Source: Deltaproteobacteria bacterium (lineage in GTDB: Bacteria; Myxococcota_A; Polyangia; Haliangiales; J016). Taken from it: a stretch of 38,453 nucleotides of DNA. A program made the translations under genes and the position numbers. The stretch spans positions 1-38,453 of the forward strand of contig RFGE01000360.1 of NCBI GenBank assembly GCA_003696105.1, read 5' to 3'. The notes beneath the pieces were generated by a model that was given only the letters and a program-made list of their open reading frames with translations, searched no databases and had not been told where the DNA came from. Below, in pieces: positions 1 to 21,148 of this stretch (positions are counted from its first letter, which is position 1; every line of letters begins with the position of its first letter).

Positions 1-932
1 CCGACGGCGAGGATCTCGCCGTCGCCAAAGAACCGCTGGGGTCGATCGCAGTCGATGTGCGCGCAGGTCACCTGGATCCACTCCATGTCGGGGAAGTCGA
101 ACATGCGGCCGCGCTGTGCGGCGAGCACCTGGCGCAGTAGCCGCAGCCGCGTCGTGCGCGGAAAGACGATCAGCTCGTAGCGACCGTCGTCGACGCGCGA
201 CACCGGTGCGAGGAAAAACGCCTTGCCGACGCGGTCGCAGTTGGCGACGAGCATGCCGTACGCGTCGACCTCGCGCGTGCGCTCGTCGCCGGACGCGGCG
301 TCCCGATAGCGAATGCGGTAGCGCGCGCCGAGCGACCGGCCGAACAGGATGACGGCCACGCAGGCGACCGTGTACAGCAGCGATCCGATCGCGCCGACGG
401 CCCAGCGGCGCAGGCGCGACCCCGCGCGCAGGCGGTTGGCGAGGTCGGCGACGTCCGCAACCCACCCGAGCCCGCCGGCCGAGTAGAACCGCACCCCGTC
501 GACGTCGATCGCGTCGATGTCGCGGCGCTCGCCGCGCTGCAAGTCGACCGCGGCCGCGGCCGCGCCGGGCCGCTGGCCGAGCACCCGCGCCAGATCGTTG
601 GCCGTGCCCGCCGGCACGACGGCCAGCCGCGTGGGTGCGTCGCCGATGCCGTTGACGCACGCGTTGACGGTGCCGTCACCGCCGACCGCGATCACGAGGT
701 CGGTGTTCCACGCGGCCGCGCCGCGCGCGGCGGCGCGCGCGGCCTCGGCGCTGCGAACGCGGCATTCGGTGATCGTCACGCCGTCGCCGAGCACCGCCTG
801 AAACAGCGGCCGCCACCGCGCGGCGCGAGCGTTCGGCGCCCGCTCGTGAACGACGATGACGGCTGTTCGGATCGCGCCAACGTGTCGCGCGGTGGCGGCA
901 ACTTCAGTTGTCGCCGCAGCCGCAGGCGCCAC
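1..932 (-). CDS. Lipid kinase with diacylglycerol-kinase catalytic domain (YegS/LCB5-like), 3' end cut by window edge
   Basis: Family members phosphorylate diacylglycerol or related lipid alcohols with ATP at the inner membrane. The N-terminal half shows the nucleotide-binding motif VGGDGTVNA near residue 88 and then VVPAGTANDLAR, both hallmarks of the DAGK catalytic domain. A later stretch reading FFGDGE resembles the conserved C-terminal strand, so little is missing at the 3' end. The only in-frame start before the first beta strand (AVIVVHERA) is a GTG at 932. If that is right, a 22-bp palindrome (894-915) falls within the first codons. The gene is divergent from the acyltransferase/ligase/BtaA operon, which suggests a shared control region. 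Family assignment is firm; the substrate and the start codon are not. Confidence 0.85.
   Translation of the reverse strand, partial: MAPAAAATTEVAATARHVGAIRTAVIVVHERAPNARAARWRPLFQAVLGDGVTITECRVRSAEAARAAARGAAAWNTDLVIAVGGDGTVNACVNGIGDAPTRLAVVPAGTANDLARVLGQRPGAAAAAVDLQRGERRDIDAIDVDGVRFYSAGGLGWVADVADLANRLRAGSRLRRWAVGAIGSLLYTVACVAVILFGRSLGARYRIRYRDAASGDERTREVDAYGMLVANCDRVGKAFFLAPVSRVDDGRYELIVFPRTTRLRLLRQVLAAQRGRMFDFPDMEWIQVTCAHIDCDRPQRFFGDGEILAV
894..915. promoter_or_regulatory. 22-bp palindrome, candidate operator (copy 1)
   Basis: The left arm GGCGGCAACT (894-903) and right arm AGTTGTCGCC (906-915) are inverted repeats matching at 9 of 10 positions around a 2-bp centre. A 2-nt loop and no T-run argue against a terminator and for a dimeric-regulator site. 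It lies between the divergent lipid kinase and the GNAT-ligase-BtaA-MMPL operon. An almost identical site sits at 10754-10775. The binding protein is unknown. Confidence 0.55.
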
Positions 933-1109
933 CGCGTGGCATCGCGGCGTTACAGGCGTAGCCGTTTCACGTGTAGTGGCGCTCGCATCGATTTCGCGTG
1001 GCGGCGTCGGTGAACCGGGTTGGAAGGGGACTCGTCGTGTCACGTCGAGTCGACGGAGCAATCTCCGCGCCAGCGAGCGCGTGGCACCGCCATTGCACTC
1101 GGTCGGCGC

Positions 1110-2105
1110 GTGTCCCGTCCATCGCCGACGACCCTCGACACCTTCTGCCAGGTTGGCCGCGCCGTGGCGGAAGCCGAGGGCGATTCGCCGCGCGCGGACG
1201 CGGCGCGGTTGCTCGCGCCGGACTTTCCCGGGCGGGACCGGTACGACGTGACCCTGCTGGCGGCGGGGCGCCGCGGCCGCGTCGCCGCCATCGTCAATCC
1301 CCACCTGCGCGACGACACCGGCCGGCCGATCGGCCTGCTCGGCGCGTACGCGTGCGTCGACGACGACGCCGTCGCGGCCGAGCTGCTGGCCGCCGGCTGC
1401 GCGCACCTTCGCGCGCGCGGCTGCGCGCGGGTGTGCGGCCCGATCGCGCTGTCGACGTGGCACCTCTGCCGGTTCACGACCGCCGGCGACGACGCCGGGT
1501 GGGTGCCCGGCGACCCCGACAACCCGCCGCGCGCGCCCCGGCAGTGGCAGGCCGCCGGCTTCGAACGCATCGCGCGCTACTGCTCGAACTGGTTGCCGGA
1601 CCCCGAGTCGATCGCGGCGCGGTTCGCGCCGCGCGCGCGCGACGCCGAACGCAACGGCTACCGCGTCCGCCGGCTGCGCGCCGCGGACGCCGGCTCGCTG
1701 TACGAGGTCGCGCTCGCGGCGTTCTCGCGCGCATTCTTGTTTGCGCCGATCGATCGCGACGAGTTCGACGCCCTGTACCCACCCGAGTGGATCGCGGCGG
1801 GCGAAGCCACCTCGCCCGTGGCGATCGGCCCGGCCGGCGACATCGCCGGGTTTTTCTTCACCTTCCCGGCGACGGTGGCCGGCCGCCGCACGCTCGTCGG
1901 CAAGACGCTCGCGGTCGCACCGGCACACCGCGGTCGCGGCGTCTACGAGTTGATCATGCACGCGTGGCTTCGCATCGGACTCGCAGCGGGCTACGACCAC
2001 TTCGCCGGCTGGCTCATGCACGCCGACGGGCCTCCGGCCCGGATGGGCTGGGCGCGGCCGGAGACCTGCATCAAGGAGTACGCGCTCTATGGTCGCAGTG
2101 TGTAG
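1110..2105 (+). CDS. GNAT-like N-acyl/acetyltransferase (YghO-like)
   Basis: The protein (about 331 aa) has an N-terminal part of the YghO-like sort, including GYACVDDD-type spacing, GCARVCGPIALS and a WQAAGFERIARY segment. A GNAT fold follows, whose acyl-CoA-binding turn is seen as TLAVAPAHRGRGVYELI near residues 265-285. Such enzymes move an acyl group from a CoA thioester to an amine. The start is uncertain: I chose GTG at 1110, but an in-frame TTG at 1020 would add 30 residues. Its 3' end overlaps the next gene by 17 bp, so it is the first gene of a coupled operon with the acyl ligase, BtaA-like enzyme and MMPL exporter. A role in acylating the amino group made by the BtaA-like enzyme is inference. 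Confidence 0.8.
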   Translation: MSRPSPTTLDTFCQVGRAVAEAEGDSPRADAARLLAPDFPGRDRYDVTLLAAGRRGRVAAIVNPHLRDDTGRPIGLLGAYACVDDDAVAAELLAAGCAHLRARGCARVCGPIALSTWHLCRFTTAGDDAGWVPGDPDNPPRAPRQWQAAGFERIARYCSNWLPDPESIAARFAPRARDAERNGYRVRRLRAADAGSLYEVALAAFSRAFLFAPIDRDEFDALYPPEWIAAGEATSPVAIGPAGDIAGFFFTFPATVAGRRTLVGKTLAVAPAHRGRGVYELIMHAWLRIGLAAGYDHFAGWLMHADGPPARMGWARPETCIKEYALYGRSV

Positions 2106-3702
2106 CGTCGGCAACGGCGGTTTCGCGCCGCTGGCGCACGAGTTGGTGTTGCGCCACGCCCGGACCGCGCCCGATCGCCCCGCGCTCGTGGCCGGCGACC
2201 GGGTCGTCCGCTACGGGGAACTCGCCGAGCGAGCCACCGCGTTGGCGGCGGGCCTCGCCGCGCGCGGCGTCGGCCGCGGCGATCGCGTCGCCGTGCTCGT
2301 GCCGATGAGCCCCGACCTGTACGTCGCCGTCGTCGCGATCGTATCGCTCGGAGCGATCGCGGCGTTCGTCGAACCGCGGTCGTCCGCGCGCGACATCGCG
2401 CGTGCGATCGGCGCGGCCGCACCGGCGGCCTTCATCGGCGTGCCGCGCGCGCACGCCTTGCGCGCGGCATTCGCCGAGGTGGCGCGGGTGCCGGTGGCGA
2501 TCGCCACCGCGAGCCGCGGGGTGGCCCGCACGGTCGCCGCCGTCGCGCTGTCCGACGTGGAAGCCGACGGCCGCGGGGCGCGCGCACCGCGGGCGACCGT
2601 GCAGCCGCACGACCCGGCGCTGCTCACGTTTTCGAGCGGCACGACCGGCACGCCGAAAGCCGTCGCGCGGTCCCACGCGCTGTTGGCCGCGCAGCACGCC
2701 GCGATCGAGCACATGGTCGCCCCGCAGCGACCGCGCGAGGTGCACATGACCGCGTTCGCGATCGTCGCGCTGTCGGGGCTCGCGTCCGGGCACACGGTCG
2801 TCATCCCGCCGCTGGGCCGCGGCGTCGACCGCGTGCACCGCGATCGCGTCGCGCGCGATCTCGTCGCGCGCGGCGTCACCGTGGTGTCGGGCTCGCCGGC
2901 GTTCCTGCAGCCGGTGGTCTCAGCCGCACCGCGCGCCGCGCTCGCGACCGTCCGGCGCGTCATCACCGGCGGTGCGCCCGTGCCGGTCGACCTGTGCGAA
3001 CGGGCGGCGGAGCGGTTGCCGAGGGGCGCGTCGATGCTCGTCGTCTACGGCAGCACCGAGGCCGAACCGATCGCGACGATCGATGCGGCCGACGTGTGCG
3101 GCGACCTGGCGGCCGCCACGCGCGCCGGCCGCGGCCTGTGCGCGGGCCGACCGGTTCCGCAGGTCGACGTGCGTTTGCTGCGCCCGACGGCGGGCCCGCT
3201 GGCGGTCGGGCCGGAGGGGCTCGCCGGGCTGTGCGTCCCACCCGGCGAGGTCGGCGAGGTCGCCGTCGCCGGGCCCCACGTCAACGAGCGCTACTGGCGA
3301 AACCGCGACGCCGAACGCGCGACCAAGGTAACCGACGAACGCGGCCGCGTGTGGCATCGCACCGGCGACGCCGCGTATTTCGACGACCGCGGCCGGCTGT
3401 GGCTCGTCGGCCGCATCGGCGACGCCGTCCGCGTCGGCGACGGCGCGCGCTACTCGTCGGCCGTCGAGGCGGTCGCGCGCACCGTGCCCGGCGTCGACCG
3501 GGCGGCGCTGATCGCCGACCGCGGCGGCCGGCCGCGACTCGTCGTCCAGGGGCGCCGCCGCGCGCGCCGGCCGCTGGCCGCGGCGCTTGCCGCCGCCGGT
3601 ATCCCGGACGCGGCGATCACGTTCGCCCGCAGCCTCCCCGTCGACCCGCGCCACCGCGCCAAGCTCGACCATCACGCCATCCGACAGAGGTACGCCCGGT
3701 GA
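2089..3702 (+). CDS. AMP-forming fatty-acid/acyl ligase, OleC-like
   Basis: This 537-aa protein belongs to the ANL superfamily, which activates a carboxylate with ATP as an acyl-adenylate. The core motifs are present in order: TFSSGTTGTPKA (P-loop, about residues 182-193), YGSTEAEPIA, WHRTGDAAYFDDRGRLW, and the C-terminal lysine motif PVDPRHRAKLD. The stretch VVSGSPAFLQPV, then RRVITGGAPVPVD, and the RH-K motif near the end resemble OleC-type enzymes (beta-lactone synthetases of olefin synthesis) more than ordinary acyl-CoA synthetases. However, no OleA, OleB or OleD is visible nearby. The ATG at 2089 has AAGGAG 10 bp upstream (2073-2078) and overlaps the acyltransferase end. The stop overlaps the next GTG. 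The substrate is not predictable from sequence alone. Confidence 0.88.
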   Translation: MVAVCSVGNGGFAPLAHELVLRHARTAPDRPALVAGDRVVRYGELAERATALAAGLAARGVGRGDRVAVLVPMSPDLYVAVVAIVSLGAIAAFVEPRSSARDIARAIGAAAPAAFIGVPRAHALRAAFAEVARVPVAIATASRGVARTVAAVALSDVEADGRGARAPRATVQPHDPALLTFSSGTTGTPKAVARSHALLAAQHAAIEHMVAPQRPREVHMTAFAIVALSGLASGHTVVIPPLGRGVDRVHRDRVARDLVARGVTVVSGSPAFLQPVVSAAPRAALATVRRVITGGAPVPVDLCERAAERLPRGASMLVVYGSTEAEPIATIDAADVCGDLAAATRAGRGLCAGRPVPQVDVRLLRPTAGPLAVGPEGLAGLCVPPGEVGEVAVAGPHVNERYWRNRDAERATKVTDERGRVWHRTGDAAYFDDRGRLWLVGRIGDAVRVGDGARYSSAVEAVARTVPGVDRAALIADRGGRPRLVVQGRRRARRPLAAALAAAGIPDAAITFARSLPVDPRHRAKLDHHAIRQRYAR

Positions 3703-4808
3703 GATCCACGATTCAGCACGCCGCCGTGTTCCAGCGCATCGTCTACAGCCAGTGCTGGGAAGATCCGGTCATCGCCGCCGAGGCGCTCGCGCTCGGCCCC
3801 GACGACGACCTGCTGTGCGTCACGTCCGCCGGCGACAACGCGCTCGCGCTCGCGCTAGCGCGCCCCCGCCGCGTCACCGCGATCGACTTTTCCGCCGCGC
3901 AAAACGCGCTGCTCGAACTCAAGATCGCGGCGCTGCGCACACTGTCGTGGGACCGCTACGTCGCGTTCCTCGGCGCGCGACCGTGCGCCGACCGGGTCGC
4001 ACTCTACCGCGACCGCGTGCGCCGCGAACTACCGGACGGTGCGCGCCGTTATTTCGACGCCAACGAGCGCCTGCTCGCCGACGGCGTCATCCACTGCGGA
4101 CGGTTCCAGCGATATCTTCAGTTGTTTCGCAGGCGGGTGCTGCCGCTCATCCACCGCGCCGACACGGTCGCCCGCCTGTTCGCCCTGTCCGATCCAGACG
4201 AGCGCGCGCGGTTTTGCGCCGACACGTGGAACAACCGGCGCTGGCGCGCGCTGTTTACCGTGTTCTTCGGCCGAGCGGTGATGGCGCGACTCGGCCGCGA
4301 TCCGGCGTTCTTCACCTACGTGGACCGCGACGACGTCGGCCGCGAGTTCTTGCGCCGCACGAACCGGGCGATCGTCGCCACCGACCCGGCAGACAATCAC
4401 TTCCTGCAGTACGCGCTGCTCGGCCACTACCCCGATCTGTCGCGCGGGCCGATCTATTTGCGCGAGCGCCACTTCGACGCGCTGCGCGCCGCGGCCGACC
4501 GCATCCGCATCGTCCGCGGCGACGTCGAGTCCTACCTCGAAGGGCTGCCGGACGGCGCCCTGTCGGCGCTGTACCTGTCGGACCTGTTCGAGTGGGTGAG
4601 CGCCGACCATCACGAGCAGCTGGTGCGCACGATCGCGCGCGTCGCGCGCCCGGGTGGCCGGTGGGTCTACTGGAACCTGCTCGTCCCGCGGCGGCGTCCG
4701 GACAGCCTCGCCGATCGGGTCGACAGCCACGACGAGGTCGCCGCGGAGCTGCACGCGCGCGACCTCGCATTCGTCTACGGCAGCTTCCACCTGGAGTCGC
4801 GGCGATGA
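3699..4808 (+). CDS. BtaA-family S-adenosylmethionine 3-amino-3-carboxypropyl transferase (DUF3419)
   Basis: The 369-aa product matches BtaA, which transfers the 3-amino-3-carboxypropyl group of SAM to the free hydroxyl of diacylglycerol in betaine-lipid synthesis. Diagnostic segments are YSQCWEDP (about residues 16-23), a SAM-site stretch VTSAGDNALAL followed by TAIDFSAAQNALLELK, and a late LYLSDLFEWVS. The GTG start at 3699 overlaps the ligase stop (GTGA), and the stop overlaps the next ATG (ATGA), so translation is coupled on both sides. No BtaB N-methyltransferase, which would complete a betaine lipid, is visible in the window. The product may therefore stay a primary amine that the operon's GNAT-like protein could acylate (inference). 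Confidence 0.87.
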   Translation: MRSTIQHAAVFQRIVYSQCWEDPVIAAEALALGPDDDLLCVTSAGDNALALALARPRRVTAIDFSAAQNALLELKIAALRTLSWDRYVAFLGARPCADRVALYRDRVRRELPDGARRYFDANERLLADGVIHCGRFQRYLQLFRRRVLPLIHRADTVARLFALSDPDERARFCADTWNNRRWRALFTVFFGRAVMARLGRDPAFFTYVDRDDVGREFLRRTNRAIVATDPADNHFLQYALLGHYPDLSRGPIYLRERHFDALRAAADRIRIVRGDVESYLEGLPDGALSALYLSDLFEWVSADHHEQLVRTIARVARPGGRWVYWNLLVPRRRPDSLADRVDSHDEVAAELHARDLAFVYGSFHLESRR

Positions 4809-7087
4809 CCCGCGCGGAGCGCTGGCTGTCCGCCCTGCACCGCCGCCGGCGCGTCGCGATCGCCAGCGTGGTGTGCGCGGCGCTCGGACTCGGCGCCATG
4901 GCGCGAACGATTCGCGTCGACAACTCGCTCGACGTCTGGTTCGTCGACGGAGATCCGGCGCTGGCCGCGTACGATGCCTACCGCGAGCGGTTCGGCAACG
5001 ACGAAATCGTGGTCATCGCCGCGGTCGCCCCCGACAGCGCATATGCGCCCGCCGCGCTCGAGCGGGTGCGCGCCGCGAGCGATCGGCTCGCCGAACACCC
5101 GCTCGTGCGCCGCGTCAACAGCATCACCCGCGGACTGCACGTTTCCGGCTCGGCCGGCGCGATCGACATCGAGCCGCTGCTCGGCGACGGGCCGGTCACC
5201 CCCGAGGAGGCGGAGCGGGTGCGCGCCCGGGTGGAAGCGGATCCCGCGTTTCGCGGCGTGGTGATCGGCCGCGACGAGCGCACCACGCTGATCCTCGTCG
5301 AACCGCGCGTGGTCGACGACTTCGACGCGGTCCGATCCGATCTGCTCGCCGACATTCGCGCGATCGTGGACGACACGTTGCGGTCCGGCGGCGCCACGGC
5401 CCACATCGGCGGGCTCGGCGTCGTCTACGACGGACTGAACGCCGCGTCGATGCGCGACTCGGCGGTGTTCGTGACGCTGTCGTATCTGGTGCTGCTCGGC
5501 GGGTTGTGGCTGCTGTTCGGCCGGTGGGTGTGGGTCGCGGTCGGCGCGGCGGTCGCGACGGTGACCGTGGTCGCGACCCTGGGCATCGCCGGCTGGGCCG
5601 GGCGCGACCTCAACATGGTCACCGGGGCGCTGCCGACGCTGCTCATCACCGTAGGCCTGATGGACCTGGTCCACCTGATCGACGCCGGGACCGGCGGCGG
5701 CCGGCGGGCGCTGGCGGCCATGGCGGTCATCGCCGCGCCGTGCGCGGTCAACACCGTCACCGATGCGATCGGGTTTTCGGCGCTGGCGAGCGCGCCGCTG
5801 GCGGCCGTCCGCGATCTCGGTTGGCTCGCGGCCGCCGGTCTGGCCGTGGGCCTGGCGAGCGTGTTCGCAATCGGCGTGCCGGCGGTCGTCCGGTTCGGGG
5901 GCGCCGCACCGCGGCGCGCCGGCGGCGACATCGTCGCGCGGGCGACGGCTGCGCTGTATCGCGTCGCGCGCGACCGCCGCGGCGCCGTCCTCGCCGGCAC
6001 GTTGGCCGTGTTCGCGATCTCGGCCGCCGGAATTGCGCGCCTCGACGTCGACACGTACACGATCGGGTTCCTCGACGAGGATCACCCGGTGCGGCGCGAC
6101 CACGCCGCGATCGAGCGGCACTTCGGCCCCTACGTGCCGCTGGAGCTCGAAGTCGACGCCCGCGCAGACGGCGGCGTCGTCCGCCCCGAGCTGCTGCGCG
6201 CGCTCGACCGCGCCGAGCGCGCGGTCGAGGCCCATCCCGCCGTGTCCCGGGTCACCGGCCTGCCGGAGATCGTCAAGCGCGTTCATCAGGTGTACATGGA
6301 CGGCGACCCGACCGCCTACGCGATCCCCGGCGACGCGCGCGTGGTCGCCGAGGAACTGTTGACCTACTCGTTTTCCGCCGATGGCCGCGACACGCTCGAC
6401 GCGCTGGTCGACCCGCCGCAGCGGCGCACCCACATCACCGCGCGCACCGGTCTGCCGACCGCGCGCGGCATCGCCGCGATCGTGCGCGACGCCGAGGCCG
6501 CCGCGCGCGGCGCACTCGGCGATCGCGCCGACGTCCGCGCGGCCGGCTACCTGCCGCTGTACGTGCGCATCATTCAGTACATCACCGAAACGCAGCTGCG
6601 CAGCTTCGCGCTCTGTCTGGTCGCGGTCGCCCTCGTGCTCGTCGCTCTGTTGCGGTCGGTCAAGCTCGGCGTCGTGGCTCTCGTACCCAACCTCCTGCCG
6701 GCGCTGATGACGCTCGGCCTGATGGGGTACTGCGGAATTCGCCTCGACGTGGCCACCGTATTGATCGCCTCGATCGCAATCGGTATCGCCGTCAACGACA
6801 CCTGCCACATCCTGTTTCGCTACCGGCACGAGCGGCGACAGCCCGGCGCCACGCCGACCTCGGCCGTCGAGGCGACCATGCGCCACGCCGGCCACGCGGT
6901 CGTCGCGACCTCCGTGCTGCTGATCGCCGGCTTCTCGGTGCTCGCGTTCGCGAGCGTTCAATCCCTGGCCTACTTCGGCGTGTTGACGGCCGCGACGGTG
7001 GCGTTCGCGCTCGTCGCGGACCTGCTGGTGACCCCGGCGCTGCTGCTGGCGGTCGACGCCGACGCTACCACCCGTAACGCACGGTGA
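4805..7087 (+). CDS. MMPL/RND-family lipid exporter
   Basis: This 760-aa protein has the RND/MMPL architecture in two repeats. One N-terminal membrane segment (about residues 18-35) is followed by a periplasmic loop opening with NSLDVWF and FGNDEIVV, then a cluster of helices. A second segment and loop (FLDEDHPVRRDH) precede a C-terminal helical bundle containing IAIGIAVNDTCHILFRYRHE. Acidic and His residues in that last motif (ND, H) fit proton-coupled transport. Family members such as HpnN and MmpL proteins move lipids out of the inner membrane. It is the last gene of the coupled operon (4-bp ATGA overlap with the BtaA-like gene). Its 3' end overlaps the convergent outer-membrane barrel gene by 23 bp. 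Confidence 0.88.
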   Translation: MTRAERWLSALHRRRRVAIASVVCAALGLGAMARTIRVDNSLDVWFVDGDPALAAYDAYRERFGNDEIVVIAAVAPDSAYAPAALERVRAASDRLAEHPLVRRVNSITRGLHVSGSAGAIDIEPLLGDGPVTPEEAERVRARVEADPAFRGVVIGRDERTTLILVEPRVVDDFDAVRSDLLADIRAIVDDTLRSGGATAHIGGLGVVYDGLNAASMRDSAVFVTLSYLVLLGGLWLLFGRWVWVAVGAAVATVTVVATLGIAGWAGRDLNMVTGALPTLLITVGLMDLVHLIDAGTGGGRRALAAMAVIAAPCAVNTVTDAIGFSALASAPLAAVRDLGWLAAAGLAVGLASVFAIGVPAVVRFGGAAPRRAGGDIVARATAALYRVARDRRGAVLAGTLAVFAISAAGIARLDVDTYTIGFLDEDHPVRRDHAAIERHFGPYVPLELEVDARADGGVVRPELLRALDRAERAVEAHPAVSRVTGLPEIVKRVHQVYMDGDPTAYAIPGDARVVAEELLTYSFSADGRDTLDALVDPPQRRTHITARTGLPTARGIAAIVRDAEAAARGALGDRADVRAAGYLPLYVRIIQYITETQLRSFALCLVAVALVLVALLRSVKLGVVALVPNLLPALMTLGLMGYCGIRLDVATVLIASIAIGIAVNDTCHILFRYRHERRQPGATPTSAVEATMRHAGHAVVATSVLLIAGFSVLAFASVQSLAYFGVLTAATVAFALVADLLVTPALLLAVDADATTRNAR

Positions 7088-8696
7088 GCGACACCGCGTC
7101 GTTGCGCGCCTGCGTGCCGGCGAGCGTGTCCGGCGGGCCGCCGTACACGAGGGCGGCGACCTCCACCGCGATGTGGTCGTGGCCGGACAGCTCCACGGCC
7201 GGGCGCACGGCGTAACCCGGCTCATCGCGCAGCTCGGCGAACGCGAGCAGCTCGAACCGCACCGGCACGCCGCGCGGCGCCCACCGCAGCTGCGTCGCCG
7301 CCACCGTCTGGTGCGCGCCGTCGAACTGGAACACGCGGGCGCCAGCCGGCACGCCGAGCACGCGCGCGTGCGACAGCTCGAACACCGCCGACAGCTCCTC
7401 GCCCCGGTCGTAGTCGATCGAGACCGTACCCGCGATGCGGTCGCGCGCGCGCGGCGTCGCCAGCAGCAGGCCGTCGGCCGGCGACGACACCAGCAACGCC
7501 GTCGCGCCCGGGTCGTAACCGACGTCGACTTTGACGCCGATCGGATCGACCCGCGTCGCCACGGCCGCGCCGAGGTGCCACCGCCGCGGGTAGCTCGCCG
7601 TCACCGCCGCTTCGCCGCGCTCGGCGAGCTGCTGCACCCGCGCCGCGACCGCGTCGACCGCCAGCGCGTCGCCCGCATCGGCGAACAGCGCGCGCAGGTC
7701 GCCGGCCACGTCGATGCGGGGAGACCGCTCGTGGCCCCACAGCGCGAACGCGTACGCATCCACGGCCGCGGTCGTTACGGCCAACCGGCCGCCGACCTCG
7801 CCGCTGCCCACCCCGCGATCCGGCGGATCGCCGATCGCGACGATCGGCTGCAGGGCCGGCGCGAATCGCGGATCGTCGGCGAGCGCCGCCACGATGGCGC
7901 CGACCCGGCGCTCGACCGCCGTGGGCGCGTTCGGGCCGAGCAGCGCGTAGTCGCCGTCGACGAGTTCGAATCGGTGCGCCGGGGCGACCGGCAGGTACAC
8001 GAGCTGCGCCTCGGCCGCGCCGCGGTGGACCGCCGCGGTCGCGGCGAACACCGGCCACCGCACGTCCTCCGGGTGCGCCAGGAACCCGCGCCGCAGGTCG
8101 CGCGCGTCGACCACGTCGTTCGGGCTGAGCAGATCGGCCGTCCCCCACGCGATGAACTGGTTGCCCACGCGCAGATCCAACCAGCGCGAGTACAGGTCCA
8201 CGTAGGTGTCCCACACGTGCGCCTCGTAGCGCTCCGTCGACGCGCGCGCGTCGGCGTCGAACGCCGCGTCCGCGTCGAACCGCACGGCCACCTTGACCTT
8301 GGCCCGGCCGCCGAGCCGGCGCACGCCCTCGCCGCGACCGTGCCAGCGAAACGCGAGCACGTCCTCACCGGCGACCGGCGCGCCGGGTTCCGCCGCCGGC
8401 GGGGCGGGATCCTGCACGACGTCGACGATCGCGCGGGCGAACGCTTCCGCGCGCACCTCGACCTGCGCGCGATGCGCGCCCGGGTCGTCGGCCGGCGCCT
8501 CGTCGGCCGGCGCGGGCGCAACCGCCGGGCCGACGTCGGCGAAGTCGTCGTCGATGACGATCGGCCCCGGCGGCGCGCCGTCCGGTTCGCCAGCCGAGTC
8601 GCCAGCCGAGTCGCCAGCCGGCGCGCCGCTGTTTGCCGGCACCGGCGCCAGCACCGCCGCGAGCGCGAGCCCCGCCGCGATGCCCCGGCCGGCCAC
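7065..8696 (-). CDS. Outer-membrane beta-barrel protein, DUF1302/alginate-export-like
   Basis: The 543-aa precursor starts with a GTG at 8696 and a typical signal peptide (residues 1-24, ending in PVPANSGA). An acidic, Ala/Pro-rich linker with IVIDDDFADV follows. The barrel part contains the segment VGNQFIAWGTADLLSPNDVV and then DARDLRRGF, which is characteristic of DUF1302-like porins. The alternating strands end in an aromatic residue (SLTVRYGW), as expected for BAM-dependent barrels. It begins 4 bp after the LolA-like gene, so both are co-transcribed behind the reductase. DUF1302-like barrels often accompany MMPL pumps and LolA-like carriers, which supports a terminal export role. The ligand is unknown. 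Confidence 0.75.
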   Translation of the reverse strand: MAGRGIAAGLALAAVLAPVPANSGAPAGDSAGDSAGEPDGAPPGPIVIDDDFADVGPAVAPAPADEAPADDPGAHRAQVEVRAEAFARAIVDVVQDPAPPAAEPGAPVAGEDVLAFRWHGRGEGVRRLGGRAKVKVAVRFDADAAFDADARASTERYEAHVWDTYVDLYSRWLDLRVGNQFIAWGTADLLSPNDVVDARDLRRGFLAHPEDVRWPVFAATAAVHRGAAEAQLVYLPVAPAHRFELVDGDYALLGPNAPTAVERRVGAIVAALADDPRFAPALQPIVAIGDPPDRGVGSGEVGGRLAVTTAAVDAYAFALWGHERSPRIDVAGDLRALFADAGDALAVDAVAARVQQLAERGEAAVTASYPRRWHLGAAVATRVDPIGVKVDVGYDPGATALLVSSPADGLLLATPRARDRIAGTVSIDYDRGEELSAVFELSHARVLGVPAGARVFQFDGAHQTVAATQLRWAPRGVPVRFELLAFAELRDEPGYAVRPAVELSGHDHIAVEVAALVYGGPPDTLAGTQARNDAVSLTVRYGW

Positions 8697-8700
8697 CGCG

Positions 8701-9483
8701 CTACTCCCGCTCCAGCGCGCGAACGGTGAACCGCTCCAGCGGAATGTCGTCGCGCAAGTCGATGTGGTCGACCCGCAACACGGTCGCGTGCTGCCGGCGC
8801 AAGTCGACCATCTTCGACTCGAGGATCACCCATCGGCCGTCGACGCGGTCGAGCTTGCGCGCCGCAAAGCGCTTGATCTCCCGCCCGCCGTCGCCGAAGA
8901 ACTGCATGCGCAGCGGCAACAGCGACTCCTTGTCGATCCACAGGTCGATGCGCGCGTACTCGCTGTCCGACGACGCCGGCCGCGCCTCGATCACGTAGCA
9001 GTCGCGGCCGCCGACGCGCTCGTCGGCGCGCCGGCGCGCAGCGGCGTCTTCGACGTCGCGCAGGTCCATGTCCGCGTAGCTGTAGTCGGTGCCGACGAAG
9101 CTCGCGTTGCGCTGCGACGACGAGATGCGGCGGGTGCGGTGCAGCGCCGGCAGAAACAGGTGCTGCGTGCGCTCGCCGCCGGCATCCACGCCCAAAAATG
9201 CGGTGCCCGCGACGTCGTGCGGCGCGACGAAGCGCACGAACGCATAGCGCGTGTCGCCGTCGGTGCGGCTGCGCATCACCAGCGTGCGCTCGCGCCGGTG
9301 ACCGCGCGCGTCGACGAGGACCATCGTCACCTTCGCCTCGGCGCCGCCGTAGCCGAGCGGATCGCGGTCGATCATCGCCGCGACGATCGCCTGGGCCGAT
9401 TCCCGCGCGCCGCCCTTGGGCTGACCGGCCACGGCCGGCGCCGCGGCGGCGACGACGGCGACGGCCGCGAGCGCCCGGGTCAT
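8701..9483 (-). CDS. LolA-like outer membrane lipoprotein-sorting/lipid carrier protein
   Basis: This 260-aa secreted protein (signal peptide residues 1-20, ending AVAG) is of the 'outer membrane lipoprotein-sorting protein' family with a LolA/LolB-like half-barrel. Visible family features are ATVTMVL-type strands after MIDRDPLGYGG, VRFVAPHDVAGTAFL, the RRISSSQRNASFVGTDYSYADM segment (split here by strands), and IDLWIDKESLLPLRMQFF. These carriers ferry hydrophobic cargo across the periplasm, and paralogues like this commonly lie beside MMPL exporters. The ATG at 9483 overlaps the reductase stop (ATGA), so the two are translationally coupled. It probably links the MMPL pump to the outer-membrane barrel (inference from context). 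Confidence 0.82.
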   Translation of the reverse strand: MTRALAAVAVVAAAAPAVAGQPKGGARESAQAIVAAMIDRDPLGYGGAEAKVTMVLVDARGHRRERTLVMRSRTDGDTRYAFVRFVAPHDVAGTAFLGVDAGGERTQHLFLPALHRTRRISSSQRNASFVGTDYSYADMDLRDVEDAAARRRADERVGGRDCYVIEARPASSDSEYARIDLWIDKESLLPLRMQFFGDGGREIKRFAARKLDRVDGRWVILESKMVDLRRQHATVLRVDHIDLRDDIPLERFTVRALERE

Positions 9484-10634
9484 GCGGCCCCCCGGCTCGC
9501 GGCGACGCGCCGCCGCCAGTCGGCGACCGCCAGCGCGACCATCCGGCGGTACAGTTCCTCGTCGATCGGACAGTGGCCGTGGCGCGCGCTGGCGTACAGC
9601 TCGCGCGACACATCCCGCGAAAACTGCTTGCGGCCCGTCACGTAGGGGCGCTCGAACCGCGTCCACCGATGAAACGTCTGCGACAGCGGGTCGAGGTCGT
9701 CGTCTCGGTCGACGATCTCGATGCCGTACAGGCCGAGCGCACGCGCCGTCATGTCGCACACCCACCGCACCGTCGGCGCGGCCGTATTCGTCAGGTGGAA
9801 CACGTGCCCGTAGGTGCGCGGCCCTGCCGCGTCGATGCCGATGCAGTCGTCGATCACCGCGTTGATCGGGATGATGTTGACCTCGGCGTCGGGACGCGCG
9901 ACATAGCGAAGCACCTGGCGCCGGAGACGCCCGCCCGATTGCTTGTCGAGCGCCGCGATCTTGAGCACCCAGCCGAGCAGGCCGGTGTACGCAGTCGCGC
10001 GGCCCGTGTGCGAGTGGCCGACGACGATGCCGGGCCGCAAGATGCGGTACGGGACGCCGGCGCGCTCGCAATGGTCGCGCACGATCGCCTCGGCGTAGTG
10101 CTTCGACTGCTCGTAGCGGTTGGCGAATCCGCGGGGCCGCGCGATGGTCTCGGCCACCACGCCGACCGTGCGGCCCGCGACGTACGCGGTCGACACGTGG
10201 TTGACCGCCCGCGCGCCCATCTCGAGCGCGAGTTCGACGACGCGCTCGGTTCCGCCGACGTTGTGCGCGACGATCGTGCGCAGTCGCCGCTCGCTGTCGT
10301 CGAGCGACGCCGCGCAGTGCCACACGACGACCGGTGCGGCGGCCCGCAACCGCTGGCGGTCGCCGTCGGACAGGCCGAGCCCCGGCGCGGTCAGGTCGCC
10401 GGGCATCGCCGAGGCGCGCGCGATCGCCGACGCGACGTCGGCGCGCGACACGCCGTACGCATCGGCGGCCCGGCGCAGCGCGGTCGCGAGCCGCCGTTGG
10501 GCCTGGGCGACGTCGGGTGCGCGCACCAGGCACAGCGCACGATCCCACGGGCGAACGCGCAACAGCTCGAGGGTGAGGGCGCTTCCGACGAAGCCGGTGG
10601 CACCGGTGACGAACAACGTGCGATGGGGACGCAT
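9480..10634 (-). CDS. Thioester/fatty-acyl reductase, extended SDR (NAD-binding_4, male-sterility type)
   Basis: The 384-aa protein is a stand-alone reductase domain of the kind that ends carboxylic acid reductases and NRPS modules. It reduces an acyl thioester with NAD(P)H to an aldehyde or alcohol. It shows FVTGATGFVGSALTLELL (Rossmann loop, residues 8-25), LCLVRAP, VVVWHCAAS, HVSTAYVAG and the catalytic YEQSK pair, followed by YRILRPGIVVG. I chose ATG 10634; a TTG at 10646 would add four residues. It is the first gene of the minus-strand operon with the LolA-like carrier and the barrel, and a palindrome (10754-10775) sits 120 bp upstream. A free OleD-like role (2-alkyl-3-ketoacid reductase) is a less likely alternative. 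Confidence 0.82.
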   Translation of the reverse strand: MRPHRTLFVTGATGFVGSALTLELLRVRPWDRALCLVRAPDVAQAQRRLATALRRAADAYGVSRADVASAIARASAMPGDLTAPGLGLSDGDRQRLRAAAPVVVWHCAASLDDSERRLRTIVAHNVGGTERVVELALEMGARAVNHVSTAYVAGRTVGVVAETIARPRGFANRYEQSKHYAEAIVRDHCERAGVPYRILRPGIVVGHSHTGRATAYTGLLGWVLKIAALDKQSGGRLRRQVLRYVARPDAEVNIIPINAVIDDCIGIDAAGPRTYGHVFHLTNTAAPTVRWVCDMTARALGLYGIEIVDRDDDLDPLSQTFHRWTRFERPYVTGRKQFSRDVSRELYASARHGHCPIDEELYRRMVALAVADWRRRVAASRGAA

Positions 10635-10933
10635 GGCGGTGGACAAAGCAAGTCCAGGGCCAATCGCGCGCGCGCAATCGCAGTGAGCGAACCAACGTTT
10701 GCGCGCGCGGTTGCGAGCTTCGATACGCGTGCGACATCCCGCTGGCCGCCGGTGGCGGCCACTTTAGTTGCCGCCGGCGTGCGCGCTCGCCCGGGCGGCG
10801 AGCGCGCCTCAGACGCGGCGCGCGCACCCGATCGCGGTTGCCGTCGACGCGTACGCGCGACCGCGGCGGCACGACCGGCAGCGCGCGGCCGCGGCGCCGC
10901 GAGCCGGCGGCACCCCGTCGCGGCGCCGCCGGA
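10635..10933. other. Intergenic control region ahead of the reductase operon
   Basis: No gene is convincing here. The stretch separates the reductase (start 10634) from the same-strand oxidoreductase (stop 10934). It contains the second copy of the palindrome (10754-10775) and is otherwise very rich in GCGC runs. No clear -35/-10 pair or T-run terminator was found by eye. Confidence 0.5.
10754..10775. promoter_or_regulatory. 22-bp palindrome, candidate operator (copy 2)
   Basis: The left arm GGCGGCCACT (10754-10763) and right arm AGTTGCCGCC (10766-10775) match as inverted repeats at 9 of 10 positions around TT. The right arm is the exact complement of copy 1's left arm, and GGT precedes the left arm in both copies. 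It lies 120 bp upstream of the reductase start, as expected for an operator. It is the only other occurrence I found in the window. Confidence 0.55.
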
Positions 10934-18853: not shown

Positions 18854-20266
18854 ATGGCCGACCTTCAGCGGTTCGACTCCGTTTCTCCACCGCCCGGCGC
18901 GTGGGTGCCGATGCGCCGAATTGCGCGGCGCGTCGCAGCGCCGGTGGAAGACTTCCTGCACACGGAAGCCGGCGGCGGCGTGCTGTTGCTCGCGGCCGCG
19001 GCCGTGGCGCTCGTGTGGGCGAACTCGCCGTGGGGAGACAGCTACGACCACCTGTGGCACACGCCGATCGCGATCGGCTTCGGCGACTGGCGGATGACCC
19101 AGTCGCTGCACTTCTGGATCAACGACGGCCTGATGACCTTCTTCTTCATGGTCGCGGGTCTCGAGATCAAGCGCGAGCTGGTCGAGGGAGAACTGTCGGA
19201 TCTGCGCCGGGCCGCGCTGCCGGCGGCCGCCGCGATCGGCGGCATGCTCGCGCCCGCGGGCATCTACCTGCTGTTCAACGGCGGCGCACCGACGCGCGAC
19301 GGATGGGGCGTGCCGATGGCGACGGACATCGCGTTTGCGATCGGGGTGCTCGCGTTGCTCGGCCCGCGCGTGCCCTCGGCGCTGCGCATCCTGCTGTTGG
19401 CGGTCGCCATCATCGACGACCTCGGCGCGATCGTCGTCATCGCCGTGTTCTACTCGAGCGGGCTGGACGTGACGGGCCTCGCGGTCGTCGGCGGCGGCTT
19501 CGCGTTCCTGATCGCGATCCAACGGCTCGGCGTCAGGCCGGGTGGCGCGTACTTGATCCCGATGACCGTGATGTGGGCCGGCCTCCACATGACGGGCGTC
19601 CATCCGACCATCGCGGGCGTGCTCGTCGGGCTCGCGACGCCCGTACGCCCCTGGCTGACCAAGGACCAGTTCACCGACATCGCCAAGCGTGCGATCGAGG
19701 ATTTTCACGCCACCGAGCGCAGCGGTGCCGACCCGATCGCGCCGCTCAAGCGCCTCATCGCGGCGGGCCGCGAGGCGGTGTCTCCGGTCAGTCGGCTCGC
19801 GTCCGGCTATCACCCGTGGGTCGCGTATCTGATCATGCCGCTGTTCGCGCTCGCCAACGCCGGCGTCCGCATCGGCGGCATCGACTTCGGGATCGATCAC
19901 ACCGCGGCGGTGGCGACCGGCATCGTCTTGGGCCTCGCGATCGGCAAGCCGCTCGGCGTGCTCGCGATGACGTGGCTGCTGATCAAACTGGGCCTCGGCA
20001 AGCTGCCGCGCGGCGTGTCGTGGAGCGGCGTGTGCGTGCTCGGCTTCACCGCCGGCATCGGCTTTACGATGGCCATCTTCATCGCGGAGCTGGCGTTCGC
20101 CGGCGCGCCGCACCTGCCGGTGGCCAAGCTGTCGATCCTCGTCGCGACCGCGCTCGCGGCCGTCGCCGGTCTCGCGGTCGGCCGGTTCGCGCTGCCGCGC
20201 CGTGTCACCGATCCCGTCGCCGCCGAACTGTCCCCGGCCGACGCCGAGGCGTCGACGGAGTACTGA
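18854..20266 (+). CDS. nhaA: Na+/H+ antiporter NhaA
   Basis: The 470-aa inner-membrane protein matches NhaA along its length. It exchanges Na+ or Li+ for protons and keeps cytoplasmic pH and sodium low. The family's transport site is visible as ATDIAFAIGVLALLG (Asp158) and AIIDDLGAIVVIA (Asp188-Asp189, equivalent to the E. coli 163/164 pair). Other signatures are HFWINDGLMTFFFMVAGLEIKREL and the late FTAGIGFTMAIFIAELAF helix. It is longer than E. coli NhaA mainly through the N-terminal extension (about 30 residues) and a cytoplasmic loop near FHATERSGADP. It is divergent from the EAL regulator with a 100-bp gap, and a HAD gene begins 6 bp after its stop. Confidence 0.95.
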   Translation: MADLQRFDSVSPPPGAWVPMRRIARRVAAPVEDFLHTEAGGGVLLLAAAAVALVWANSPWGDSYDHLWHTPIAIGFGDWRMTQSLHFWINDGLMTFFFMVAGLEIKRELVEGELSDLRRAALPAAAAIGGMLAPAGIYLLFNGGAPTRDGWGVPMATDIAFAIGVLALLGPRVPSALRILLLAVAIIDDLGAIVVIAVFYSSGLDVTGLAVVGGGFAFLIAIQRLGVRPGGAYLIPMTVMWAGLHMTGVHPTIAGVLVGLATPVRPWLTKDQFTDIAKRAIEDFHATERSGADPIAPLKRLIAAGREAVSPVSRLASGYHPWVAYLIMPLFALANAGVRIGGIDFGIDHTAAVATGIVLGLAIGKPLGVLAMTWLLIKLGLGKLPRGVSWSGVCVLGFTAGIGFTMAIFIAELAFAGAPHLPVAKLSILVATALAAVAGLAVGRFALPRRVTDPVAAELSPADAEASTEY

Positions 20267-20272
20267 CGCGCG

Positions 20273-21148
20273 ATGGCCGAGCCGACCGCTCCCGGCGCAC
20301 CGGCGCGCGCCGGCGAACCGACGCCCACCACGATCGACTCGCTCATCGCGCGCTACGACGTGCTGCTGTTCGACGCGTACGGCGTGCTGGTGTCGCACTC
20401 CGGCGCGCTGCCGGGCGCGCGCGAGGCGCTCGACGCCATCGATGCCGCCGGCAAGCGGTTTTTCGTCGTGACCAACGACGCGTCGAAGCTGCCGGCGACC
20501 GCCGCGGCGCGGTATCGCGCGTTCGGCCTGCCGGTGACCGCGGATCACATGATCACGTCGGGCATGTTGCTCGCCGACGCCGGCTTGGCGGGCGCCGCCT
20601 GCATGGTGCTCGGCACGCCCGACACGGTCGAGTACGTGCGAGCCGCCGGCGGCGTGCCGGTCCCGCCGGCCGAGGACGGTCGCTACGACGCGGTCATCGT
20701 CGGCGACGACGCCGGCTACCCGTTTCTCGACACGCTCGACGTGGCGCTCACCGCGCTGTACCGCCACATCGACCGCGGCGATCCGGTGCGGCTGCTGTTG
20801 CCCAACCCGGATCTCGTCTACCCGAAGGGCCCGGACCGCTGGGGGTTCACCGCCGGAGGTGCCGCGATGCTGATCGAAGCCGCGCTCGCGCGGCGGTTTC
20901 CGCGGCGCGCGCCGCGGTTCGAGCGGCTCGGCAAACCCAACACGCCGCTGTTCGACCTCGCACGCCGGCGCGCCGGCACCGATGCGATCGTGATGATCGG
21001 CGATCAGCTCGAGACGGACATCGCGGGTGCGCGCGCGGCCGGCATCGACGCCGCGCTGCTGGCGACCGGCGTGTCGCGCTGGGCCGACCGGGGCGACGAC
21101 GCGCCGCGCCCGACCTACTTGCTCGCGACCATCGCCGCCGCGAAATAG
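20273..21148 (+). CDS. HAD-superfamily IIA (NagD-like) protein, altered motif I
   Basis: The 291-aa protein has a NagD-type HAD IIA layout: motif I LLFDAYGVLVS (Asp34), motif II FFVVTNDASK, a C2 cap region (MITSGMLLADAG to VIVGDDAGY), the lysine motif RLGKPNTPLF and motif IV MIGDQLETDIAGA. The residue that is usually the second Asp of motif I is Tyr36, so dephosphorylation may be slow or the activity different. A DLWGVL-type substitution is known in a NagD-like subfamily. The start ATG 20273 is 6 bp after nhaA, suggesting one transcript, and its 3' end overlaps the convergent methyltransferase gene by 34 bp. The substrate is unknown. Confidence 0.83.
   Translation: MAEPTAPGAPARAGEPTPTTIDSLIARYDVLLFDAYGVLVSHSGALPGAREALDAIDAAGKRFFVVTNDASKLPATAAARYRAFGLPVTADHMITSGMLLADAGLAGAACMVLGTPDTVEYVRAAGGVPVPPAEDGRYDAVIVGDDAGYPFLDTLDVALTALYRHIDRGDPVRLLLPNPDLVYPKGPDRWGFTAGGAAMLIEAALARRFPRRAPRFERLGKPNTPLFDLARRRAGTDAIVMIGDQLETDIAGARAAGIDAALLATGVSRWADRGDDAPRPTYLLATIAAAK

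Follow-up and report, generated by a model that had tools for sequence, protein, structure and literature searches.

A candidate lipid synthesis and export system of Myxococcota encoded around a BtaA-type enzyme

Which lipid could be made and exported by a locus that places a BtaA-type enzyme beside an acyltransferase, an acyl ligase and a transporter, and do all of its genes serve one pathway? The question is raised by contig C360 of a 381-contig draft genome (the window, 38 453 nucleotides), in which an earlier note, made from the sequence alone, had named eight genes in a coupled, convergent arrangement. All eight were confirmed by translation and Pfam searches, and the spacing of the genes agrees with the arrangement. 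Genes for a GNAT-fold acyltransferase (1110–2105; alternative start 1164), an AMP-forming acyl ligase (2089–3702), a BtaA/DUF3419 protein that is a putative SAM 3-amino-3-carboxypropyl transferase (3699–4808) and a predicted MMPL/HAE3-type RND lipid exporter (4805–7087) follow one another on the + strand, with spacings of −17, −4 and −4 bases. They converge with − strand genes for a stand-alone thioester-reductase-like NAD(P)-dependent reductase (TR; 9480–10634), a LolA-like periplasmic carrier (8701–9483) and a DUF1302-type outer-membrane protein (7065–8696), spaced by −4 (LolA/TR) and +4 bases (DUF1302/LolA); the 3′ ends of the MMPL and DUF1302 genes overlap by 23 bases. A DAGK_cat/YegS-type lipid kinase gene (− strand, 3–869, start codon provisional) diverges from the GNAT gene and crosses the contig edge at its 3′ end. 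Elsewhere in the window (18911–21148), a gene for a HAD-type hydrolase lies closely 3′ of one for an NhaA-type Na+/H+ antiporter. Our best overall explanation is a conserved lipid system with a full inferred mechanism, most of which the window holds (probability about 0.45). The broader proposal of the earlier note, a single system for lipid synthesis and export made up of these genes, is very probably correct, judging from core genes that cluster across many Myxococcota families as well as on a plasmid of an alphaproteobacterium.

Profile scores support the enzyme families, with the Pfam gathering scores exceeded by every protein except the GNAT, and the expected motifs were found in the kinase, the ligase, TR and the GNAT. 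BtaA matches DUF3419 with 242 bits across residues 9–366 of 369, nearly its full length, and was also placed in a tree. The ligase matches AMP-binding with 204 bits. It missed the NCBIfam OleC equivalog cut-offs by a wide margin (256 versus 900 and 194 versus 850 bits) and OleC equivalog status was rejected; the term 'OleC-like' thus describes a resemblance among adenylate-forming enzymes and carries no indication of OleC chemistry, and the OleABCD olefin pathway further differs in that the window locus has no OleA- or OleB-like gene. The MMPL protein scores 55.6 bits in two stretches (Pfam cut-off 20.5) and has 11 hydrophobic segments by a crude count. HpnN, BstA and MmpL are comparable as lipid transporters, but the protein falls under the HpnN and BstA equivalog cut-offs (NCBIfam) and is paired with LolA-like and DUF1302 proteins. 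The GNAT stays under the Acetyltransf_1 cut-off (16.4 versus 20.7 bits), which is passed by its orthologue (33.6 bits) from Myxococcales bacterium PRO3, the source of the locus that best matches the window. It aligns with E. coli YghO at 22% identity over 177 columns, a part of its length (pairwise E 1e-9; 7e-7 in a small database), such that homology to the YghO/CerS superfamily is detectable. Identity as CerS was rejected, since the CerS sequences form one side of a branch with 100/100 support and the window protein lies outside. Structure prediction, suggested by the earlier note, used two-row alignments for BtaA and the GNAT; the models are of low confidence, and their matches to a class I SAM-dependent fold and to tandem-GNAT folds, respectively, lend weak support.

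The earlier note regarded the gene set as complete within the window, which did not hold. The contig edge splits the set and the window cuts the locus short. The first 99 bases of contig C148 (L142) are identical to the left end of the window in joining orientation, the kinase reading frame continues across, and C148 carries the conserved UbiA-like and PPDK/PEP-utiliser-type genes past that end. In PRO3 (L008), PPDK-like, UbiA-like and DAGK genes diverge from GNAT-ligase-BtaA-MMPL; the window organism very probably has the same order, as the 99-base overlap and synteny suggest. The PRO3 PPDK-like protein matches only PPDK_N and PEP-utilizers (Pfam). Identity as PEP synthase was rejected because it does not have the PEP-utilising C-terminal (pyruvate-binding) domain. 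Rifampin phosphotransferase (RPH), PigC and RedH similarly have these phospho-histidine domains and no C-terminal domain of the PEP synthase type, but the PPDK-like protein, encoded past the window edge, forms its own subfamily (best match NF004881, 840 bits versus a cut-off of 883).

The kinase passes the Pfam gathering score (DAGK_cat, 72.9 bits), contains a GGDGT motif and is 61% identical to its PRO3 counterpart. Its membership of the system, claimed in the earlier note, stands for the window and PRO3 but does not extend to most relatives, which have an unrelated membrane protein in its place; this protein is missing from both the window genome and PRO3. No Pfam or NCBIfam family matched it, and by motif reading only it looks like a member of the dolichol/phytol kinase family.

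Gene order was compared across 379 Myxococcota genomes, most of them fragmented drafts. The homologues are clustered elsewhere, and the outcome that had been named as fatal to a joint pathway, genes never found together, did not come true. Close BtaA homologues (E up to about 1e-50) and the UbiA-like protein each occur in 34 genomes and together in 30 (p 8e-36, shared ancestry ignored); the UbiA-like protein is found in just 2 of the 31 genomes that have only weaker DUF3419 matches. GNAT matches were obtained in 29 genomes, 19 of which also have the UbiA-like protein (p 5e-16, shared ancestry again ignored), and several of the remaining 10 have Spt or CerR next to the GNAT in loci of the ceramide type. 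A UbiA-PPDK-BtaA-MMPL operon recurs (L183, L188–L190, L194, L195, L197 and L239). L180 and L181 have the GNAT and ligase genes in the same stretch as the core; in other genomes these genes are found on other contigs. In genus g127 the kinase-like membrane protein is present in 3/3 system genomes versus 0/6 others (Fisher 0.012, a small sample), in line with the other co-occurrences. Pairwise distances of the system proteins correlate (r 0.83–0.95), values that common species ancestry alone could yield. Taken together, the comparison supports a predicted system core of UbiA-like, PPDK-like, BtaA, GNAT, acyl ligase and lipid-kinase-like proteins, with MMPL for envelope transport. One genome (G116) carries two system gene sets, on contigs C200 and C345; the C345 set has the kinase-like membrane protein directly after BtaA.

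Outside Myxococcota, a plasmid of Roseinatronobacter sp. S2 (NZ_CP121116, L227) carries overlapping or abutting genes for UbiA-like, PPDK-like, DUF3419, membrane, GNAT and AMP ligase proteins, each homologous to a system protein. In our view, no other single finding speaks as strongly for a pathway that unites all six functions as this operon does. The operon does not include MMPL, so transport appears separable from synthesis; the isolate has been sequenced, and the product of the six genes is directly testable there. A Mycobacterium riyadhense plasmid (L230, 7662–13323) encodes DUF3419, an iron-containing redox enzyme, a GNAT and an RND transporter consecutively, a DUF3419-GNAT-MmpL-type arrangement. 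On Rhizobium plasmid pMK-2 (L228, 1–5670), a different DUF3419 cluster consists of consecutive genes for ketoacyl-ACP synthase III, an oxidoreductase, an MBL hydrolase, CoF synthetase, DUF3419 and one protein of no assigned family.

BtaA-type enzymes are known for phosphorus-free betaine lipids: BtaA moves aminocarboxypropyl from SAM onto diacylglycerol, and the amine of the product is subsequently methylated by BtaB. No BtaB homologue was found in the window and 19 system loci (no match below E 0.1; best E 0.12). In a Shinella control locus (L229) the methyltransferase (BtaB) gene overlaps BtaA. In the mechanism we propose, BtaA would transfer the 3-amino-3-carboxypropyl group of SAM to the hydroxyl of a lipid alcohol, creating a homoserine head group that is ether-linked and has a free amine; without BtaB, the amine would stay unmethylated and give no betaine. 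The AMP-forming ligase would activate an acyl group, with which the ceramide-synthase-like GNAT would then N-acylate this amine. N-acylation is proposed because the loci have no BtaB, the GNAT is a distant relative of YghO, and no clear Spt is present: there is none at the locus, and the window genome has only two Spt-family matches of 35–36%, probably other oxoamine synthases. The kinase, UbiA-like and PPDK-like proteins would prepare or modify the lipid alcohol by phosphorylation and possibly prenyl or alkyl transfer, and TR would add an accessory step in the window species. MMPL would pull the lipid out of the inner membrane, and the LolA-like protein would ferry it through the periplasm to the receiving DUF1302 barrel. 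We infer the roles of the kinase, UbiA, PPDK and TR, the order of the steps (activation, aminocarboxypropyl transfer, acylation, reduction) and, from distant relatives, the substrates of BtaA, the GNAT and the ligase. For the specific N-acyl-homoserine chemistry we see slightly under an even chance.

More tentatively still, the product may belong to an as yet undescribed lipid class, namely an N-acylated homoserine lipid with an ether linkage and perhaps an isoprenoid chain. BtaA would make it without BtaB, a dedicated MMPL-LolA-DUF1302 route would bring it to the outer membrane, and the cluster is spread through Myxococcota and present on an alphaproteobacterial plasmid. In this product an amino acid would be joined to a fatty acyl group through an amide, as in OlsB/OlsA and related aminolipids; the known N-acyltransferases of that type carry PF13444 (PMC11631085), whereas the window GNAT has no PF13444 match and SAM would provide the amino acid, as an ether. 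As the earlier note had surmised, no description of this combination was found in the open-licence literature searched. The enzyme families themselves are known, and the system would belong among bacterial amino-lipid pathways and not in a new category. If the proposal is true, BtaA-type enzymes also provide the entry into a hitherto undescribed pathway to N-acylated lipids, UbiA-like and PPDK-like enzymes otherwise without link to such lipids take part in it, and a dedicated inner-to-outer-membrane lipid route becomes open to study.

The UbiA-like protein is compatible with a different pathway, in which a prenyl or long-chain alcohol, once activated by the kinase-like and PPDK-like proteins, would be coupled to an acceptor by the UbiA-like protein and decorated by BtaA and the GNAT; the product would be a prenylated amino-lipid or secreted metabolite instead of a diacylglycerol-based membrane lipid. 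The protein keeps D-E-x-K-D-x-x-x-D, which resembles the motif with which UbiA enzymes bind prenyl diphosphate. Its linkage to BtaA is as tight as that of any gene, and it is often accompanied by the membrane protein with dolichol/phytol kinase-like motifs. However, the window and PRO3 use a DAGK_cat kinase, none of the loci showed a prenyl-diphosphate synthase, and the UbiA Pfam score is equivocal (PRO3, 30.1, below the cut-off of 34.2; Roseinatronobacter plasmid, 43.9, above it). We consider this isoprenoid product unlikely, though it deserves to be kept in mind.

The N-acylated lipid system that we favour includes both halves of the locus, and it could be objected that these are unrelated convergent operons, the + strand encoding the lipid system and TR-LolA-DUF1302 serving another purpose. 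TR matches NAD_binding_4 with 160.8 bits, has the motifs GATGFVG, STAY and YEQSK and finds its best PDB match in the MxaA reductase domain. These results place it in the reductase fold family; membership of the TIGR01746 thioester reductases was rejected (136.6 versus 213.35 bits), and the protein is a stand-alone reductase domain. The LolA-like protein scores 178.5 bits (LolA_like) and starts with a signal-like stretch, and the DUF1302 protein scores 32.2 bits (Pfam). In PRO3, other genes lie 3′ of MMPL and TR is alone on a separate contig; most Myxococcota core operons are without adjoining LolA and DUF1302. Against a chance meeting of the two halves, genome G002 has TR-LolA-DUF1302-ligase all in one direction, with a ligase related to that of the window and a 47% identical DUF1302 homologue, and four other genomes (G095, G126, G005 and G247) have homologues of LolA and DUF1302 close to core genes.

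A 22-base, operator-like palindrome also connects the two halves. One copy (GGCGGCAACTTCAGTTGTCGCC, 894–915) sits in the divergent kinase/GNAT promoter region and the second (GGCGGCCACTTTAGTTGCCGCC, 10754–10775) 120 bases upstream of TR; the earlier note set the ends of the locus at 894 and 10775, which coincide with the outer ends of the two copies. The chance expectation in shuffles was 0.00, and, apart from the PRO3 site described next, neither the rest of the window nor 1.97 Mb of loci, some overlapping, contained a site with up to one mismatch to GGCAACTNNAGTTGCC. The PRO3 TR orthologue, which has no adjoining LolA or DUF1302, is preceded by a matching palindrome (CACGGCAACTCGAGTTGCCGTG, L045, 8912–8933), and no copy was found in the PRO3 kinase/GNAT gap. 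We read the palindrome as a putative shared operator, which would govern both halves. Since the palindrome, the four genomes and the G002 gene order tie the halves together, two unrelated operons are quite improbable. TR adjoins LolA and DUF1302 only in the window and G002, consistent with an accessory gene that is not conserved with the core; LolA and DUF1302 are supported by the comparison as probable envelope transport parts in some lineages.

The presence of a GNAT of the YghO/CerS superfamily and an acyl ligase raises the question of a variant of bacterial ceramide synthesis, which combines aasR-cerR-acpR-spt with cerS and in which YghO is the presumed N-acyltransferase of E. coli (PMC9386255, PMC11324152). 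In E. coli BL21, YghO adjoins fatty acyl-AMP ligase, epimerase, ACP and Spt genes. The window locus has neither Spt nor AcpR, the GNAT lies in a separate clade, and by BLAST at E 1e-5 the window ligase has no match to E. coli AasR and TR none to CerR; a ceramide pathway is therefore very improbable. Myxococcota do have ceramide loci of their own, with Spt adjoining a CerS-type GNAT (L126, L128, L129 and L133; CerR in 3/4), and these can serve as an outgroup.

Betaine-lipid (DGTS) synthesis with unrelated neighbours shares the BtaA-type enzyme, strong in its DUF3419 homology and predicted to transfer aminocarboxypropyl to a lipid hydroxyl, but can be practically dismissed, as BtaB is absent from the loci, present in the Shinella control, and replaced across loci by the same partners (UbiA-like, PPDK-like, GNAT, ligase and MMPL).

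Further neighbours were seen around GNAT and DUF3419 genes in the survey. A phosphatidylserine-decarboxylase-type gene adjoins the GNAT in L061 (10719–11615), L102 (8040–8912) and L113 (11159–12043), and two of these genomes also carry BtaA on another contig; the enzyme might decarboxylate an amino-acid head group or supply another amine. In L098, L101, L106, L107, L112, L114 and L115, a gene for a 450–630 residue protein (c8; no Pfam family matched the L101 copy) diverges from membrane-protein-GNAT-ligase genes. In L059 (8881–10985) and L060 (9862–12050), DUF3419 adjoins a protein resembling type III polyketide synthase.
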